Shown here: piece after piece, positions 2,216 through 27,564 of the stretch | How the letters are laid out: every line of letters begins with the position of its first letter | How positions within the stretch are numbered: the stretch's first letter is position 1 | NCBI RefSeq assembly: GCF_000803645.1 | Contig: NZ_CP009122.1 | Location: 2,580,501-2,644,500, forward strand | Direction: 5' to 3' | From: Sphingopyxis fribergensis | Lineage (GTDB): Bacteria > Pseudomonadota > Alphaproteobacteria > Sphingomonadales > Sphingomonadaceae | DNA length: 64,000 nucleotides | Translations under genes and position numbers: made by a program | Notes under the pieces: model-generated | Seen by the model: the letters and a program-made list of their open reading frames with translations, nothing else | Database searches by the model: none | Told to the model about the DNA's origin: nothing

Positions 2216-3322
2216 TCAGTCGGTCGCCGGCAGCTCTTCATCCACCCAAAAATCGTCGGTCGGCATCATGAAATTGACCGTTTTGACGCAGCCCGACGCC
2301 CCCTGCGGCGAGGGGACGACGCGCGCGCCGCGCACGATGAAGGTCGCCTGCTGGCCGAAATCGGCCGACGGCTGCGCGTCCAATATCTTCACATTGCCGA
2401 TCTCGCCCCATGGCGCGACGTCGAACGAAACGATCGCCCACCCCTCGATCGCGCGCTTGCGATAGGCGGGCGGATAATAGCTGTTGGGCCGGACCGCCCA
2501 TTCGATCTGCCCCGGACAGACGGCGTTCGCGGGCCGCAATTCCTGCTCTGCGGGCCGCTTGGGCGGGGCGAGCTTGGCCGCCGCGCGCCAATAGGGATAG
2601 AGGCACCCGGTGCGCGCGCCGCGGGTAAAGCGCGAAGCCTGCACCGCCGCCACCGCCGCCGCGTCGAGTTCGGCATTGCCTGTGCTGTGCGCGATCCTGG
2701 CGTTGACCGGCCGACCCGTATCGTCGGTGTCGTAACCGACCAGCGACCAGTCGCGGCTCCCGGGCGTCGGCGTCACCTTCGAAAAATCGGGATAGGCGCG
2801 CAGCAGCGTCGCCGGGCGTGGCTTGTCGCGGCAATTCCCCACGGGGGCAAATAGGTCCCATCCCTCCAGCGGCAGCTTTGCACCCGTGGGATGGATCGAA
2901 TAGGCGACCAGATCGGCGATCGGCGCGCTGGCCAGCGGATCGATTTTCGGGGTGTAGTCGATTTCGCAATTCTCGCGCTTCGCGCCCGCGGGAAAGCGAC
3001 TCGCGGCCAGCGCGGGGCCGATATCTTGCCCAAAGGGATGCCCGCTGTTGTCACGCATGATCGAGCGCGTCCGCCCATCCAGATCGATGGCAAAGCGATA
3101 GGTCGCCGCTTTCAGCCGTTGCGGATCCATCAGCGCCAATTCGGCCGCGGGGCGTTGCACTGCCCCGCCCTGAACCGCGACCCCGTCGCAGCGGACCTCT
3201 CCCGGATTCCACGACAGCATCTGCTGCGACGACGTCGCGCGATCGCCGGATACCGGCGGCGGGGCAGGCGGCATGTTGGCCACGATCGACAGCAAGGTGA
3301 TCAGAATACCCGTTTCCAACAT
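2216..3322 (-). CDS. TonB C-terminal-domain protein (energy-transducer-like)
   Basis: 368 residues with a hydrophobic N-terminus (METGILITLLSIVANM) that acts as a signal or anchor. Two regions resemble TonB C-terminal domains: about 175-235 (GRPVNARIAHSTGNAELDAA) and the last 85 residues (YPPAYRKRAIEGWAIVSFDV, with the typical 'YP..A...GI.G.V.V.F.V' pattern). Such proteins contact outer-membrane receptors. However, the usual proline-rich stalk and a neighbouring exbBD are absent, so it may be a periplasmic TonB-fold protein rather than a working transducer. Its ribosome binding site lies in a long hairpin (3328-3371). Confidence 0.7.
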   Translation of the reverse strand: MLETGILITLLSIVANMPPAPPPVSGDRATSSQQMLSWNPGEVRCDGVAVQGGAVQRPAAELALMDPQRLKAATYRFAIDLDGRTRSIMRDNSGHPFGQDIGPALAASRFPAGAKRENCEIDYTPKIDPLASAPIADLVAYSIHPTGAKLPLEGWDLFAPVGNCRDKPRPATLLRAYPDFSKVTPTPGSRDWSLVGYDTDDTGRPVNARIAHSTGNAELDAAAVAAVQASRFTRGARTGCLYPYWRAAAKLAPPKRPAEQELRPANAVCPGQIEWAVRPNSYYPPAYRKRAIEGWAIVSFDVAPWGEIGNVKILDAQPSADFGQQATFIVRGARVVPSPQGASGCVKTVNFMMPTDDFWVDEELPATD

Positions 3323-3327
3323 GATCG

Positions 3328-3371
3328 AGCCCCCGCAATTTCACGCCCAGATTAGCGTTATTGCGGGGGCT
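3328..3371 (-). promoter_or_regulatory. 12-bp perfect inverted repeat covering the ribosome binding site of the TonB-like gene
   Basis: Arms 3328-3339 and 3360-3371 are perfectly complementary over 12 bases (AGCCCCCGCAAT on the plus strand) with a 20-base loop. On the minus-strand mRNA the 3' arm contains GCGGGGGCT, the only purine-rich Shine-Dalgarno candidate, and ends 5 bases before the ATG at 3322. A folded leader would therefore hide the initiation site. It could alternatively be a palindromic repeat with no regulatory role. Confidence 0.45.
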
Positions 3372-3401
3372 TACAAGGTTGAAAAGCAACGGGATTGAAC
3401 G

Positions 3402-4274
3402 CTATTTCGTGCCGGAACGCTCGTCGGCGAGCCTCTTTTCCAGCTTCTTGCGACCGCGGTCGGCGTAGGCGCTGCACGCCCCGGGCGTTTCGTCATACCG
3501 CCCCGGTCCGGCATTGTCGGGATGCGCCGCGATCAGCACGTCGCACGGCATCGCCTCCATCTTGCGATAGCTTTCGGCAAAGCCCTTGACGAACGACGCT
3601 CCGGCCTTCGAGCTGAAGCGATAGCCGTCCGCCGACACCGGGTTCAGGCTCGATGCAAAGACGATCGCCTTGCAGACTTCTCCCTCGCACGCCTGCCAGC
3701 GCCAGCTCATGCTGCCCATCGTGTGCCCCGGCGTCGCGACCGCGGTGATCGCCGCCTTGCCCAGCTTCAACACCTCGCCATCCTTGACGACGCGCAGCCG
3801 CGTCACGGCGGGCCAGCTGCCGCCATAGGCAAGTTGCGGGTCGTCCTTGGCGTGCATGCCTGTGCGCAGCCCCTCGGCGCCGCGGGCGCTCGCGACGACC
3901 GTTGCGCCGGTATCGCGCGCCAGTGCCGCGAGCCCGCCGGCATGGTCGAAATGCGGCTCGGTGCTCAGAATAAATTTGATGTCTTTGGGGTCGAAGCCCA
4001 GCTTGCGGACATTGGCGAGGATCGCCGGCGCCGCCTGCGGCAGCGCGCCGTCGATCAGCACCAGCCCGTCGCCCGTATCGATCAGCGCGACGCTCAGCCC
4101 GCCAAACCCGACCAGATAGCTGTTACCGAAAATCTTCTCGGGCGGCAGCGGCGCGAGCCACTCCTTGGCGCGCTCGACCGCCAGCGGCCGCGTCAACGGG
4201 TCGTCGGCCGCGGGCACCGAAACCCCGCTCACTCCCGCGAGCCATGCGGCGATAGTGATTGTTGCGATCATCAT
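3402..4274 (-). CDS. Subclass B3 metallo-beta-lactamase, E116-type zinc site
   Basis: 290 residues from the first of two adjacent ATG codons; AAGGGAG sits 5 bases upstream, which rules out the longer open frame. A signal peptide (residues 1 to about 22) suggests a periplasmic enzyme. The B3 zinc ligands are visible: H108, D110 and H111 in EPHFDHAGG, H184 in GHT, and H251 in AAHPD. The residue that is normally the first His (B3 position 116) is Glu106, so the motif reads E-x-H-x-D-H. Variants with Glu or Gln here are known in B3 enzymes. It lies divergent from an AmpR-like regulator, which fits inducible beta-lactam hydrolysis. Other MBL-fold lactonase activity is possible. Confidence 0.85.
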   Translation of the reverse strand: MMIATITIAAWLAGVSGVSVPAADDPLTRPLAVERAKEWLAPLPPEKIFGNSYLVGFGGLSVALIDTGDGLVLIDGALPQAAPAILANVRKLGFDPKDIKFILSTEPHFDHAGGLAALARDTGATVVASARGAEGLRTGMHAKDDPQLAYGGSWPAVTRLRVVKDGEVLKLGKAAITAVATPGHTMGSMSWRWQACEGEVCKAIVFASSLNPVSADGYRFSSKAGASFVKGFAESYRKMEAMPCDVLIAAHPDNAGPGRYDETPGACSAYADRGRKKLEKRLADERSGTK

Positions 4275-22648: not shown

Positions 22649-24316
22649 ATGACCATGCTCCGCGACCCCTCGGTCAAATATAGCGCCTTTCCGCAGATTC
22701 CCCTGGGAACCCGCGAATGGCCCGGCCGCACGATCACCCAGGCGCCGATCTGGCTCTCCACCGACATGCGCGACGGCAATCAGGCGCTGATCGACCCGAT
22801 GGATGCCGAGAAAAAGGCACGCTTCTTCGACCTGCTCGTCCGCATCGGCCTCAAAGAAATCGAAGTCGGCTTCCCCAGCGCCGGCGCGACCGAGTATGAC
22901 TTCATCTCGGGCCTCGTCCGCGATGGCCGCATCCCCGACGACGTCACCCCGCAGGTGCTGACCCAGAGCCGCGCCGACCTCATCCGCACCAGCTTCGACA
23001 GCCTCGCGGGCGCGAAAACCGCGATCGTCCACGTCTATAACGCGGTCAGCCCCGCGTGGCGCAAGATCGTCTTCGGCATGGACATGGCCGACATCAAACA
23101 GATCGCGATCGACGGCGCCAAGCAGCTGCGCGACAATGCCGCGCGCCTGCCGCAAACCAACTGGCGTTTCGAGTACAGCCCCGAAACCTTCTCGACCGCC
23201 GAACTCGATTTCAGCATCGAAGTATGCGCCGCGGTGATGGACATTCTCCAGCCCACCACCGACAACCCGATCATCCTCAACCTGCCCGCAACGGTCGAGG
23301 CCGCGACCGCGAACATCTACGCCGACCAGATCGAATATTTCGGCAAGAACCTGCCGAACCGCGACCGCGCGCTGATATCCTTGCACACCCACAACGACCG
23401 CGGCACCGGCGTCGCGGCGGCCGAGCTCGGCCTGCTCGCGGGCGCCGACCGCGTCGAGGGCTGCCTGTTCGGCAATGGCGAGCGCACCGGCAACACCTGC
23501 CTCGTCACCATCGCGCTCAACATGTACACACAGGGCGTCGACCCCGAACTCGACTTCTCGAACATCGACGAGGTCATCCAGACGGTCGAATATTGCAACC
23601 AGCTCCCCGTCCACCCGCGCCACCCCTATGGCGGCGAACTCGTCTACACCGCTTTCTCGGGCAGCCATCAGGACGCGATCAAGAAAGGCTTCGCCGCGCG
23701 CGAACGCCAGAATGACGAGCGCTGGGAAGTCCCCTACCTGCCCATCGACCCCGCCGACCTCGGCCGCAGCTATGAAGCGGTGATCCGCGTCAACAGCCAG
23801 TCGGGCAAGGGCGGCGTCGCATGGGTGCTCGAACAGGACAAGGGCCTGAAACTCCCGAAGAAAATGCAGGCGAGCTTCAGCCATGTCGTGCAGGCGCTCG
23901 CCGACGAGACGAGTCGCGAGCTCGGCGCCGAGGATATCTGGGGCGCCTTCGACCACGCCTATCTCGTGACCGAGGGTAAGCGCTTCCAGCTCGTCGACTG
24001 GTCCGAAACGCACTCGGGGCCCGACCGCATCTTCGCCGGCAAGCTCACCATCGACGGCGCCACCCGCAGCGTCAGCGGCCGCGGCAACGGCCTGATGAGC
24101 AGCGTCATCGCCGCGCTGGCCGAAAGCGGCGGCCCGATCATGGACATCGTCGATTACAGCGAGCACGCGATCGGCCAGGGCAGCAAGGTGCAAGCCGCCG
24201 CCTATGTCGAATGCCGCACCGCCGACGGCAAAAGCATCTTCGGCTGCGGCCTCGACACCGACGTTGCGACGGCGAGCGTGCGGGCGATTTTGTCGGCGGC
24301 GAATGGGGCGGAGTAA
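22649..24316 (+). CDS. leuA: 2-isopropylmalate synthase, LeuA2-type
   Basis: 555 residues, with the long-form (fungal/actinobacterial-like) N-terminus: YSAFPQIPLGTREWPGRTIT and APIWLSTDMRDGNQALIDPM. The catalytic TIM barrel carries metal-binding LISLHTHNDRGTGVAAAE and GCLFGNGERTGN. The C-terminal LeuA dimer domain ends VASVRAILSAANGAE-like (actual TASVRAILSAANG) and mediates leucine feedback. It makes isopropylmalate from acetyl-CoA and ketoisovalerate, the first committed leucine step. The stop is one base from the stop of the convergent RelA/SpoT-fold gene. Confidence 0.95.
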   Translation: MTMLRDPSVKYSAFPQIPLGTREWPGRTITQAPIWLSTDMRDGNQALIDPMDAEKKARFFDLLVRIGLKEIEVGFPSAGATEYDFISGLVRDGRIPDDVTPQVLTQSRADLIRTSFDSLAGAKTAIVHVYNAVSPAWRKIVFGMDMADIKQIAIDGAKQLRDNAARLPQTNWRFEYSPETFSTAELDFSIEVCAAVMDILQPTTDNPIILNLPATVEAATANIYADQIEYFGKNLPNRDRALISLHTHNDRGTGVAAAELGLLAGADRVEGCLFGNGERTGNTCLVTIALNMYTQGVDPELDFSNIDEVIQTVEYCNQLPVHPRHPYGGELVYTAFSGSHQDAIKKGFAARERQNDERWEVPYLPIDPADLGRSYEAVIRVNSQSGKGGVAWVLEQDKGLKLPKKMQASFSHVVQALADETSRELGAEDIWGAFDHAYLVTEGKRFQLVDWSETHSGPDRIFAGKLTIDGATRSVSGRGNGLMSSVIAALAESGGPIMDIVDYSEHAIGQGSKVQAAAYVECRTADGKSIFGCGLDTDVATASVRAILSAANGAE

Positions 24317-24317
24317 T

Positions 24318-25307
24318 CTAGCCGTCCGCACTTTCTCCGATGTCATTTAGGAGCGGCTCTAACTGGCTCGTGGTCATGGGCCAGTCCCTGATAGCCTCTC
24401 GGTAATTCGCGGAAGCGGCCAAGTAAACTAGAAGCACCGATGGCTGAGAGAATATCGGATTTCTCTCAGCCAAATGATCCCTGATCTTCTGAGGGATGTA
24501 AGGTTTTGATCTTACAAGATCATTTATCTGCTCTGAAAACTCATTAGTGAAAAATTTCTCGAATGAACCAGCAAGTAGACCCTCTATTGCGTTCGGCTTT
24601 GGCGCGACTCCGACGATCGCCTGATAGACCTCAGACGCCTTTCGGGTAAGCTCTCTTACAGAGGCAAGCGCCTTGTTCACGTCTTCTGTGACGCGTTCAA
24701 AATAGTCGTTCGTCGCCTCCAGCAAAGCCATGCTCTTTGCAGCATTTCTTTGCATAATTGGCGTTGCAGCGACTTGAGGCTTATATATAGTATCATGCGT
24801 CAATTCGCTATACGCATGCTGAAGTATTGTCTTAATTTGTACTTCACACGGTATATCTTTCGGTACGACTATGTCGCCGTAGGAAAATTCTTCATTCGGT
24901 CGAACAACGTAGTGGAATGCCGCGTAGTCAAACTCGATTGGTCGCGCTTTTCGCTCCTCCTCATGGTCCCTATCTTTCGAGAACGACCATCCTTGGATCG
25001 AGGTCAGCACCTCCTGAACCAACTTCATGTCGGAGCCCAAAAGGACAACCAACCGAATGCCGACCTTGTCGGTTATCTCTTCATATGGGTTCTGATAGTT
25101 TTTTCCCGGTCTGTAAAACGCCTTTTCGACCAGTTTGTGCCCGTCCTTCAATCGAGGGGTCACGTGAATCTTGAGGAAATAATCTACATCGACAGACAAA
25201 CGCCCACGAAGGCCATCCTTGACCGCGTCGGCAATGCAGTGCCCCCAAGCAAGGTAAGCATCCTTTTCAACATTCCAACGATCGAGCAAATCACTTTCAC
25301 GGGTCAT
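24318..25307 (-). CDS. RelA/SpoT nucleotidyltransferase-fold protein (alarmone-synthetase-like)
   Basis: 329 residues. Residues about 45-180 follow the RelA/SpoT synthetase pattern: PRLKDGHKLVEKAFY, EEITDKVGIRLVVLL (catalytic-type D80), EFDYAAFHYVV (usual GYxSxH, here DYAAFH) and CEVQIKTILQHAYSEL (E155 of the ExQ motif). The C-terminal 150 residues are helical and unassigned; no HD hydrolase, TGS or ACT domain is seen. It could make (p)ppGpp, (pp)pApp or modify tRNA, as toxSAS toxins do. Its ATG overlaps the upstream NA37 gene by four bases. Codon use is much more AT-rich than in the surroundings, so it is probably acquired. Confidence 0.8.
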   Translation of the reverse strand: MTRESDLLDRWNVEKDAYLAWGHCIADAVKDGLRGRLSVDVDYFLKIHVTPRLKDGHKLVEKAFYRPGKNYQNPYEEITDKVGIRLVVLLGSDMKLVQEVLTSIQGWSFSKDRDHEEERKARPIEFDYAAFHYVVRPNEEFSYGDIVVPKDIPCEVQIKTILQHAYSELTHDTIYKPQVAATPIMQRNAAKSMALLEATNDYFERVTEDVNKALASVRELTRKASEVYQAIVGVAPKPNAIEGLLAGSFEKFFTNEFSEQINDLVRSKPYIPQKIRDHLAERNPIFSQPSVLLVYLAASANYREAIRDWPMTTSQLEPLLNDIGESADG

Positions 25308-26365
25308 TCCGGATTTTCGATCCCACCCTTAATGGTAATGTGCGTAACAACACCGCCATCCGCCGCCTCGACAGTTTCCATGGTCACCATTTCAGCAAAC
25401 GCCTGCGGCGGCCCGGATAGTGTGACCTTATTCCCAAACCTCACCTGACGCACCTTAAGGCTCCCTTGAACCTCCCGCAGATCCTTGTCCACGGCCCGCG
25501 CTGGGAACCCCTGACCTCGCATAAACGCGACGTAGTTGTTCGCTACATCGTTTGGAAGATAGTTATCGGCAAATTGCTGAACCTGAATGGTCGGAGATTG
25601 ATCGACCTTAAGATAGGTGTAGAGGCCATTAAACAGGTCTACTTTTTGGTCTCGGGGAAGGTTCGAAGATCTTATGTAACCCTTTGTTTGCTCAAAGAAT
25701 TGCTTCACCCTGTGTGCGCTATCTTCTGGAATATCCAAACCAAGAAAGTTACTATAAAAATAGTTAGCAGCACCATCCCGGCGAGAAGCCGTGAGCAGCT
25801 GGTCAAAGAGCAAGGGGGACCAACCATCAGGAAAATCTGCGCCGTCGGCCGCGCCCTCATCCATAAACAGGCCGATTTTGTATAGCTTTGTCCCCTTGCT
25901 GAGAAACAAATCACTAACAAATCTAGCTTGGAGATTTCCTGTTTTCTGAAACGCCTCGTGAAGCTCTGCCTTCATAACCGCAAAAAATCGGTTTGCCGGC
26001 TGACCTACCGATCCCTCGAATACGACAACAACACCGCCAGGGATTCTCTGCGATGTCTGCGAGGCAGCAAGCTTATCAGCAAAATGTCGCGACTGGATAA
26101 TGAAGTCACCGTCATTTGCAGCATTCAACAACTCTGCCCCGGCAGCTACAGCCGAACCCGCTCCAGAGTCCCTGATAGCCATCTCCATGCAGTGTCCATC
26201 GCTCTTAAATGCTGCGAGAACCCGACTTCGAAAAGCATTCAAAGCTGCTCCTTGCAGCTGAAATAGCCCCTGAGCATATTGGGGTTGCACAACATTACCG
26301 GCATCGTCACGTACGTAAACTTCATGCAGACAAACTCGGCCAACCGTAAGGTTTTCTAACGCCAT
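25304..26365 (-). CDS. NA37/NdpA (YejK-like) nucleoid-associated protein
   Basis: 353 residues. The pattern VYVRDDAGNVVQPQYAQGLF near the N-terminus, ANRFFAVMKAELHEAF (K132) and LSKGTKLYKIGLFMDE resemble the 37-kDa nucleoid-associated family (PF04245), known in E. coli as YejK. These proteins bind the nucleoid. In many genomes extra copies sit in accessory regions. The gene is AT-rich relative to its surroundings and is translationally coupled (ATGA) to a RelA/SpoT-fold protein. A Shine-Dalgarno-like GGAGGG lies about 4 bases upstream of the ATG. Confidence 0.75.
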   Translation of the reverse strand: MALENLTVGRVCLHEVYVRDDAGNVVQPQYAQGLFQLQGAALNAFRSRVLAAFKSDGHCMEMAIRDSGAGSAVAAGAELLNAANDGDFIIQSRHFADKLAASQTSQRIPGGVVVVFEGSVGQPANRFFAVMKAELHEAFQKTGNLQARFVSDLFLSKGTKLYKIGLFMDEGAADGADFPDGWSPLLFDQLLTASRRDGAANYFYSNFLGLDIPEDSAHRVKQFFEQTKGYIRSSNLPRDQKVDLFNGLYTYLKVDQSPTIQVQQFADNYLPNDVANNYVAFMRGQGFPARAVDKDLREVQGSLKVRQVRFGNKVTLSGPPQAFAEMVTMETVEAADGGVVTHITIKGGIENPE

Positions 26366-26580
26366 ACCCCCTCCATCATACTAAACCACGCCCCGCTTCG
26401 TCACGATCATAGAAGCTTGCCACATATTGTAAGCTACATTGAAGTGGTGATTTTTCATATCAAAGAAAAGACCGTATTTGAGGCACTCCGGCCTTAGCCG
26501 ATCCGACCAAATTTTCTCTTTCCTACAATTCACCCATATGGTTCATTCTATCGGTTTCACCTAACCGAAAGGACGAATCG
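26366..26580. promoter_or_regulatory. AT-rich spacer upstream of the NA37/RelA-fold operon
   Basis: 215 bases, clearly lower in GC than the flanking core genes. It must hold the promoter of the minus-strand NA37 operon and of the plus-strand HTH-like gene. CCGAAAGGACG just before 26581 supplies the latter's ribosome binding site. I could not place a -35/-10 pair confidently and see no flanking direct repeat that would mark an insertion target. Confidence 0.4.
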
Positions 26581-27564
26581 ATGGACGACGCCGCGCATAA
26601 CCCCGCCACCATCCCCGCCCCCGGCAGCTATCACTGGACCCCCAAACTCCAGCGCGAGTTTCTCAAGGCCTTCGCCACCAACGGGTCGGTGAAGATTTCC
26701 GCGGCCAAGGTCTGCATGTCGCCGTCCGCCGTCTATCAGCTGAAGCAGCGGCCCGAGGGCGCGGCGTTCCGGCTCGGCTGCGCCGCGGCGACGCTGATCG
26801 CGCGCGGGCGGCTGGTCGACGAGCTGCTCGACCGCGCGATCTGGGGCTATGAGGAAACGAGCACGATCATGCGCGAGGAGGGACGCAGCTTCGTCAAGCG
26901 CCAACGCCTCGACCCGCGCCTCGGCCTCGCGATGCTCGCGCGGCTCGACAAGATGGTCGAAACCCGCGCCCGCGAAGGAGAAGAGATGCTGGCGCAGATC
27001 ATCGCCGGCGACTGGCCGGGCTTCCTCTCGCTCTTCGACGCGACCGAAGTTTTGGCGCCTGACGGCGCCGGGCCCGAAAGCACCGACGCCGAGGGGGACC
27101 AAAAGAGCGGGATGGCGGCCGCCCTCGCCCTCTGGCTCGCCGCGCGCGACAACCGCGCCAACCCGCTCGCCACCCTGTGGCGCGGAACCGCAATCGCGAA
27201 TGAAGTTGCGCAGTTTTCCGCCGATTCCGACGCCGAACCCGAACGCGCTGACGAGGAGCCGACCCCCGAGGAACAGGCCGCGCAAATGACCATCTGGCAC
27301 GACGAGGAAAGCGGCGAATGGCGCACCGACTTCCCGCCGCCGGACGATTATGTCGGGATCGAGGAAGGCGTGTTCGGCGACGAGCATTATGAACGCACCC
27401 TCGACGCCGAGGAAGAAGAAGCCTGGAACGCCGCGCATACCGAGGCCGTCGAACCGCTGCGCCGCGCCGGCGAAGCCGCCCGCCGCGCCTTCTTCGCCCT
27501 CCCCGACCCCGCGAACGATCCCGAGGCCGAAGGCGGCAAAGTGCGGAAATCGGCGAGCGGTTGA
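26581..27564 (+). CDS. HTH-like protein with acidic C-terminal half, unknown
   Basis: 327 residues. Residues about 20-60 (WTPKLQREFLKAFATNGSVK, then ISAAKVCMSPSAVYQLKQRP) look like a helix-turn-helix of the kind found in terminase small subunits and some regulators. The central part is helical (RLVDELLDRAIWGYEET), and the C-terminal 130 residues are Glu/Asp-rich. GC content returns to the core level here, so it seems not to belong to the AT-rich operon upstream. Probably a DNA-binding protein; the target is unknown. Confidence 0.65.
   Translation: MDDAAHNPATIPAPGSYHWTPKLQREFLKAFATNGSVKISAAKVCMSPSAVYQLKQRPEGAAFRLGCAAATLIARGRLVDELLDRAIWGYEETSTIMREEGRSFVKRQRLDPRLGLAMLARLDKMVETRAREGEEMLAQIIAGDWPGFLSLFDATEVLAPDGAGPESTDAEGDQKSGMAAALALWLAARDNRANPLATLWRGTAIANEVAQFSADSDAEPERADEEPTPEEQAAQMTIWHDEESGEWRTDFPPPDDYVGIEEGVFGDEHYERTLDAEEEEAWNAAHTEAVEPLRRAGEAARRAFFALPDPANDPEAEGGKVRKSASG

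Follow-up and report, generated by a model that had tools for sequence, protein, structure and literature searches.

The stretch of DNA analyzed here, in the following called the window, comprises 64,000 nucleotides of Sphingopyxis fribergensis (contig NZ_CP009122.1, positions 2,580,501 to 2,644,500 of the forward strand). In it lie two overlapping genes, the upstream one coding for an NA37 protein and the downstream one for a stand-alone protein with the RelA/SpoT synthetase fold; they are placed between leuA and a further gene, which we call the right-flank gene, both of the opposite strand (Table 1). The initial annotation described the pair as an AT-rich operon coupled through a 4-base ATGA overlap and proposed that it is a defence or toxin-antitoxin system. 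Genes, overlap and base composition were found as described: the G+C content (GC) is 0.46-0.53 in all four 500-base segments spanning 24500-26499, and 0.608-0.744 in 37 of the remaining 38 segments scanned (0.562 in one). Scans for promoters and terminators around the pair gave matches no more frequent than chance for the scanned region. Since a 702-aa frame of the 5.2-Mb host genome codes for a further RelA_SpoT protein, the only other one there, the synthetase of the window was rejected as the housekeeping Rel; no second NA37 match was found in this genome.

Table 1. Features at and around the two-gene locus (positions in the window)
Feature	Position	Strand	Basis or remark
leuA (2-isopropylmalate synthase), conserved left flank	22649..24316	+
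Left cargo junction	24310..24320		blastn matches to leuA of other strains stop 3-28 bases short of the leuA stop
RelA/SpoT-fold pyrophosphokinase, like a small alarmone synthetase (SAS), 329 aa	24318..25307	-	open reading frame (ORF) call, Pfam, predicted structure
Stop/start overlap, 4 bases, ATGA	25304..25307	-	NA37 stop and synthetase start
NA37/YejK-fold protein, 353 aa, first gene of the operon	25304..26365	-	ORF call, Pfam
Intergenic region before the NA37 gene	26366..26517		two minus-strand matches resembling promoters (26433-26375)
63-base element upstream of the right-flank gene; right cargo boundary	26518..26580	+	80-97% identical in genus mates having it
Right-flank gene, 327 aa, several copies in many genus mates	26581..27564	+

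The synthetase matches Pfam RelA_SpoT with 45.5 bits (gathering cut-off 27, E 1.1e-11), and the Pfam scan gave no match to a hydrolase, TGS or ACT domain. In the predicted structure a synthetase domain (residues ~1-180) is followed by a long helix (183-232) and a helical C-terminal part (240-322). The helical C-terminus noticed at the outset thus reappears in the prediction: 183-322 is helical without any strand, with ten-residue means of the predicted local distance difference test (pLDDT) of 80-98. A fused CapRel was rejected because, with no strand predicted at 183-322, the three-stranded beta sheet of a pseudo-zinc finger is missing. Residues R52, K54, K62, D80, R85, Y128, H132 and E155 do not vary among 70 aligned sequences, and they include the catalytic-type Asp (D80) and Glu (E155) which the initial annotation had pointed out; six of the eight correspond to donor, catalytic and acceptor residues of FaRel2 as given in the available part of its description (PMC11782079). 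With the catalytic residues invariant a degraded active site, the weak point that had been foreseen for the proposal, was rejected, and as far as the alignment can tell the active site is intact. The acceptor motif is another matter. It is of the YAAxH type instead of the GYRSxH of (p)ppGpp synthetases, and the position of the arginine is occupied by Ala in 64, Gln in four, Ser in one and Arg in one of the 70 sequences; furthermore, the MNFW/MDMW segment of RelQ/RelP is replaced by one of QHAY type.

The closest sequence and fold matches of the synthetase are enzymes of the RelQ/RelP (YjbM/YwaC) type, over residues ~1-217; the fold comparison is thin beyond residue ~210. With the NCBIfam YjbM equivalog the synthetase scores 26 bits (cut-off 320), and it differs from RelQ/RelP in the replaced arginine, the longer helical C-terminus, the NA37 partner and the mobility described below. 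Structures of toxic small alarmone synthetases (toxSAS) among the fold matches listed are CapRel, FaRel and Tas1 only, and the absence of others carries little weight. PDC-S33, one of PADLOC's models for candidate defence genes, is similar to the synthetase domain: it matches residues 76-167 of the window synthetase at 5.5e-4 and the E. coli synthetases treated below at 2e-9 and 5e-8; all are partial matches, spanning ~90-135 residues.

The partner protein has NA37 (PF04245) as its sole Pfam match above cut-off (41.5 bits, gathering cut-off 24.6, E 1.4e-10), so both family assignments made initially stand. It is not YejK (NdpA) proper, from which it also differs in being coupled to a synthetase: the NCBIfam YejK equivalog gives 13.3 bits where 341 are needed, the identity to YejK is 12%, and a sequence search of the PDB with the NA37 profile finds YejK at E 0.33. 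A comparison with the fold of KwaB gave a Z inside the range which the comparison tool rates as common, and no KwaA was seen; Kiwa consists of the membrane protein KwaA and the DNA-binding KwaB, and the window pair has a synthetase in place of KwaA.

The two genes occur together far beyond the host genome. Seventeen loci were fetched, 13 from a contig scan with patterns limited to close relatives, three from a plasmid collection and one from a Bacteroides plasmid, and by tblastn the NA37 gene lies directly upstream of the synthetase gene in 16 of them. This gene order persists in relatives down to ~30% identity, so that a pair unique to the host genome can be rejected and the recurring adjacency on which the original proposal depended is borne out. 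Among the 16 loci, L001 is truncated at a contig end, NA37 of L012 is spread over two frames, and the synthetase of L016 is in two pieces; L017, the sole locus where NA37 is missing, has a synthetase with 33% identity over 217 aligned positions. ATGA or GTGA forms the stop/start overlap in 14 of the 15 loci compared, L006 being the exception, and in E. coli the two genes overlap by one base or are 8 bases apart.

Larger samples gave the same picture. On viral contigs ten loci match the synthetase; the seven matches of at least 200 residues have NA37 upstream and the three short ones do not. In a plasmid collection of 72,556 records 13 match the synthetase, four of them over at least 80%, and NA37 (E up to 1e-5) matches exactly these four. 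The pair is found in 3 of 5426 E. coli genomes, NA37 being present in all three carriers, and further searches in E. coli added none. Seven of 397 genomes of the same family, the host included, have NA37 at E up to 1e-8, each time adjoined by the synthetase (split across two contigs in G030; NA37 in two frames in G910). The synthetase has matches at E up to 1e-20 in 25 of 398 genomes of the phylum: the three above 300 bits (own included) all have NA37, and NA37 is absent from the ~1.5 kb flanks of all 22 at ~76-132 bits, two of which lie on pieces of ~2 kb. A sample of 385 genomes of the class gave the host genome and six weak synthetase matches without NA37. A divergent short pair is present in G019 of the same genus (L024; NA37 at 27 bits, synthetase frame of 220 aa).

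Two further comparisons concern the inheritance of the pair. When the best 120 of 687 synthetase clusters were set beside the best 120 of 236 NA37 protein clusters, 58 shared the size of their longest contig, 1.8 being expected when sizes were jittered. The distances of synthetases and NA37 proteins in 23 pairs are correlated with r = 0.937, the maximum of 5000 permutations being 0.455. This correlation includes shared ancestry and hence supports co-inheritance, not contact between the two proteins. It should be noted that L016 (4916-6959) comes from a Neisseria gonorrhoeae record of 2.17 Mb which is filed as a plasmid and resembles a chromosome; here NA37 is open and the synthetase is broken into two reading-frame pieces.

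The distribution is patchy. The full family was found in 2 of 36 genomes of the genus, the host included, and in the synthetase tree Sphingomonadales, Hyphomicrobiales and Acetobacterales are interleaved, with five order changes where shuffling gave a mean of 4.7 (11 rows of known order; the tree is a quick one, in which L136 and L138 have long branches). In all 24 loci compared the GC of the pair is below that of the rest of its locus; the difference is 0.01 in L013 and L133 and at least 0.03 in the other 22. The pair occurs on plasmids, on integrase elements and on viral contigs. That the pair is a mobile, translationally coupled operon which moves horizontally is supported by these observations.

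The position of the pair downstream of leuA turned out to be a slot for variable cargo, which the initial annotation had missed. A leuA match is present in all 60 genomes sampled from the genus. Downstream pieces were fetched for 40 of them, and both flanks are present in 29 of the 40, a share which is biased since the first 20 were chosen mostly for a nearby right-flank gene. The inserts between leuA and the right-flank gene are 0.5-3.2 kb long, vary by strain and have a GC of at most 0.58 in 24 of 29 cases. Eleven pieces lack a full right-flank gene. One of them, from G030, carries the same NA37 and synthetase pair at this position, interrupted by a contig break; nine others have a GC of at least 0.63 after leuA, and L112 has 0.57. 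In G007 and G013 less than 0.1 kb separates leuA from what remains of the right-flank gene, the start of which has been lost or has diverged.

A recognised defence-type gene is found in 12 of the 29 inserts. They carry GmrSD_N with HEPN (L092 and L108) or GmrSD_N (L120), a Dazbog-like gene (DzbA 2e-45, L091), a retron-type reverse transcriptase (RT_VI 7.5e-62) with a helix-turn-helix gene (L093), an OLD-like ATPase (L095) and a 574-aa homologue of it seen in a pooled scan only (L100), AAA_15 (L115), an ImmA-like peptidase (capP 2e-46, L109), HipA_2 kinases (L113 and L125) and a SmaI-type endonuclease with an N6/N4 methylase (L116); the number becomes 13 if L107 is counted, where AbiJ_NTD4 and HEPN_Swt1 are each below cut-off. 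Of the other 16 inserts L086 and L099 match DUF7946 and DUF6932 only, L087 matches nothing, and the rest were covered by the pooled scan only or left out where the GC of the ORFs exceeded 0.575; these inserts may hold undescribed modules. At 1e-5, 56 AT-rich ORFs from the slot (L112 included) match 179 PADLOC families and 54 window ORFs, picked by codon composition, match 16, a contrast which is illustrative only because the pool was chosen for low GC, ATPase models overlap and some ORFs are likely spurious. A PADLOC mad3 match at 9.8e-53 comes from one of these 54 ORFs; the ORF is not among the ten window ORFs that were checked singly. Copies of the leuA 3' end (227-253 bases, 82-83% identical) are found within two inserts (L094 985-1226 and L103 996-1222), and these second copies suggest that the cargo arrives by recombination at leuA. 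The slot also offers a means of collecting more small defence modules in the genus.

Placed among defence genes in the leuA slot and travelling between unrelated bacteria, the pair is probably an undescribed defence module, and on the genomic evidence its status as a candidate defence system is well supported. We judge it reasonably probable, though far from settled, that it is a mobile conflict module controlled by NA37, an anti-phage system of the abortive-infection or toxin-antitoxin type. The model builds on the conserved operon with its overlap, the co-inheritance, the mobility, the catalytic residues, the acceptor motif and the placement; the mechanism we infer. The NA37 protein would be translated first from a common transcript and would restrain the RelA-fold protein, the putative effector. 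Upon a change in DNA or in a phage or host component NA37 would free or activate the effector, which would then transfer pyrophosphate from ATP to an acceptor, conceivably a purine nucleotide or the 3' end of a tRNA; the infected cell would thereby stop growing, which would protect against the phage. If this is right, NA37/NdpA proteins, usually seen as nucleoid proteins or regulators of mobile elements, become control or sensor subunits of a defence enzyme, and a new partner, probably also a new acceptor, is added to those known for the alarmone-synthetase fold.

A different division of labour is brought up by the enterobacterial form. The NA37 and synthetase genes of all four enterobacterial loci (one on a Klebsiella plasmid, three on E. 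coli chromosomes) are directly preceded by a gene with the annotation DUF4231 or SLATT. Of three such genes scanned two match DUF4231 above cut-off and the third matches SLATT_4 with 22.8 bits (cut-off 27); two match the PADLOC models for two-transmembrane (2TM) effectors (4e-6 and 2.5e-4) and one none. The three E. coli copies lie in integrase-bearing stretches at tRNA-Thr beside proBA, one integrase being marked as a pseudogene. In strain SCU-102 (L143 7145-13322) the SLATT-type gene, NA37 and the synthetase adjoin PsyrTA at the tRNA-Thr integrase site (PsyrT match E 0, PsyrA match 7e-170), so that a defence or conflict context of the pair is supported by this neighbourhood as well as by the leuA slot. 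According to a prediction in the available part of PMC7159879, SLATT forms pores in response to nucleotides. It might accordingly be proposed that NA37 activates the RelA-fold enzyme and that a nucleotide messenger opens the SLATT pore; in the two-gene forms the messenger would have to be toxic by itself or the effector be located elsewhere. The constant position of the SLATT-type gene and its 2TM effector matches speak for such signalling, which we nevertheless hold to be unlikely: there is no SLATT-type gene between leuA and the right-flank gene in the window, and a simple hydropathy scan found no small 2TM ORF directly beside the pair in alphaproteobacterial loci. L011 and L013 have an ORF with four transmembrane segments 0.5-0.8 kb downstream of the pair. 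A combined model, in which NA37 reads incoming or stressed DNA and the RelA-fold enzyme uses a non-canonical acceptor to make a product that opens the SLATT pore in enterobacteria or poisons the cell in the two-gene forms, is put forward tentatively and is likewise unlikely. If true, its three-part logic would amount to CBASS-like signalling that draws on another enzyme superfamily and in which NA37 proteins serve immunity as DNA sensors.

Still less probable is that the pair serves the mobile elements themselves, NA37 being an NdpA-like nucleoid protein and the enzyme adjusting (p)ppGpp so that the element is transferred or stably kept. The occurrence on plasmids, integrase elements and viral contigs would fit, as would the stimulation by NdpA2 of the transfer of PAPI-1, an integrative and conjugative element (PMC9927451, as excerpted); at variance with it are the position of the window pair alone in a slot whose other inserts are of the defence type and an acceptor motif unlike that of (p)ppGpp synthetases. 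An ordinary stringent-response synthetase beside a nucleoid protein by chance would agree with the nearest matches being RelQ/RelP and is very improbable in view of the strict pairing, the distance correlation, the patchy spread, the slot placement and the low YjbM equivalog score.

We return to the NA37-controlled conflict module and to the known systems it may be compared with. With toxSAS (FaRel2, PhRel2, CapRel, FaRel), some members of which are anti-phage, the pair has in common the stand-alone synthetase fold, most donor, catalytic and G-loop residues, a conserved adjacent partner gene and mobility. The window synthetase ends in a helical C-terminus and not in a fused pseudo-zinc finger. 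The antitoxin types of toxSAS described in the portions available of PMC11782079, PMC9712102 and PMC8832971 are pseudo-zinc finger, PanA, Tis1 and hydrolase, and NA37 is outside these. Among the matches listed for the openly licensed literature on NA37 or nucleoid-associated proteins together with toxSAS, with alarmone synthetases or with phage defence there is no paper on this pair; one review, PMC12593503, contains both terms. The other comparison is with cyclic oligonucleotide-based antiphage signalling systems (CBASS). Those with SLATT/2TM effectors form a class, and the enterobacterial form resembles them in that a 2TM protein of SLATT type is accompanied by an enzyme with a nucleotide-pyrophosphokinase fold; it differs in having a RelA fold and not a CD-NTase (cGAS/DncV-like nucleotidyltransferase), and the two-gene forms have no 2TM gene. 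No CD-NTase (SMODS) appears among the curated matches of the pair, which are RelA_SpoT and NA37 only. We file the pair as a variant of the alarmone-synthetase-fold conflict modules with an undescribed partner; it may work in a toxSAS-like way, and toxSAS membership is not claimed. The initial interpretation is thus upheld in part: the coupled mobile operon, the active site and the context stand. It had overlooked the slot at leuA, the change in the acceptor motif and the third gene, of SLATT type.

Two minor observations concern neighbouring genes. The right-flank gene, for which Pfam gave no match at E up to 1, was considered as a marker of cargo elsewhere and dropped after 11 further loci (L145-L155). 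Clearly AT-rich sequence lies beside it in L153 and L154 only, the former being the leuA slot of G030 split by the contig break and the latter lying near a contig end; L145 has one 500-base segment at 0.55. Finally, the viral contig L137 has 1.1 kb upstream of its pair an ORF (3280-3783) which we take to resemble the DUF4065/Panacea domain.
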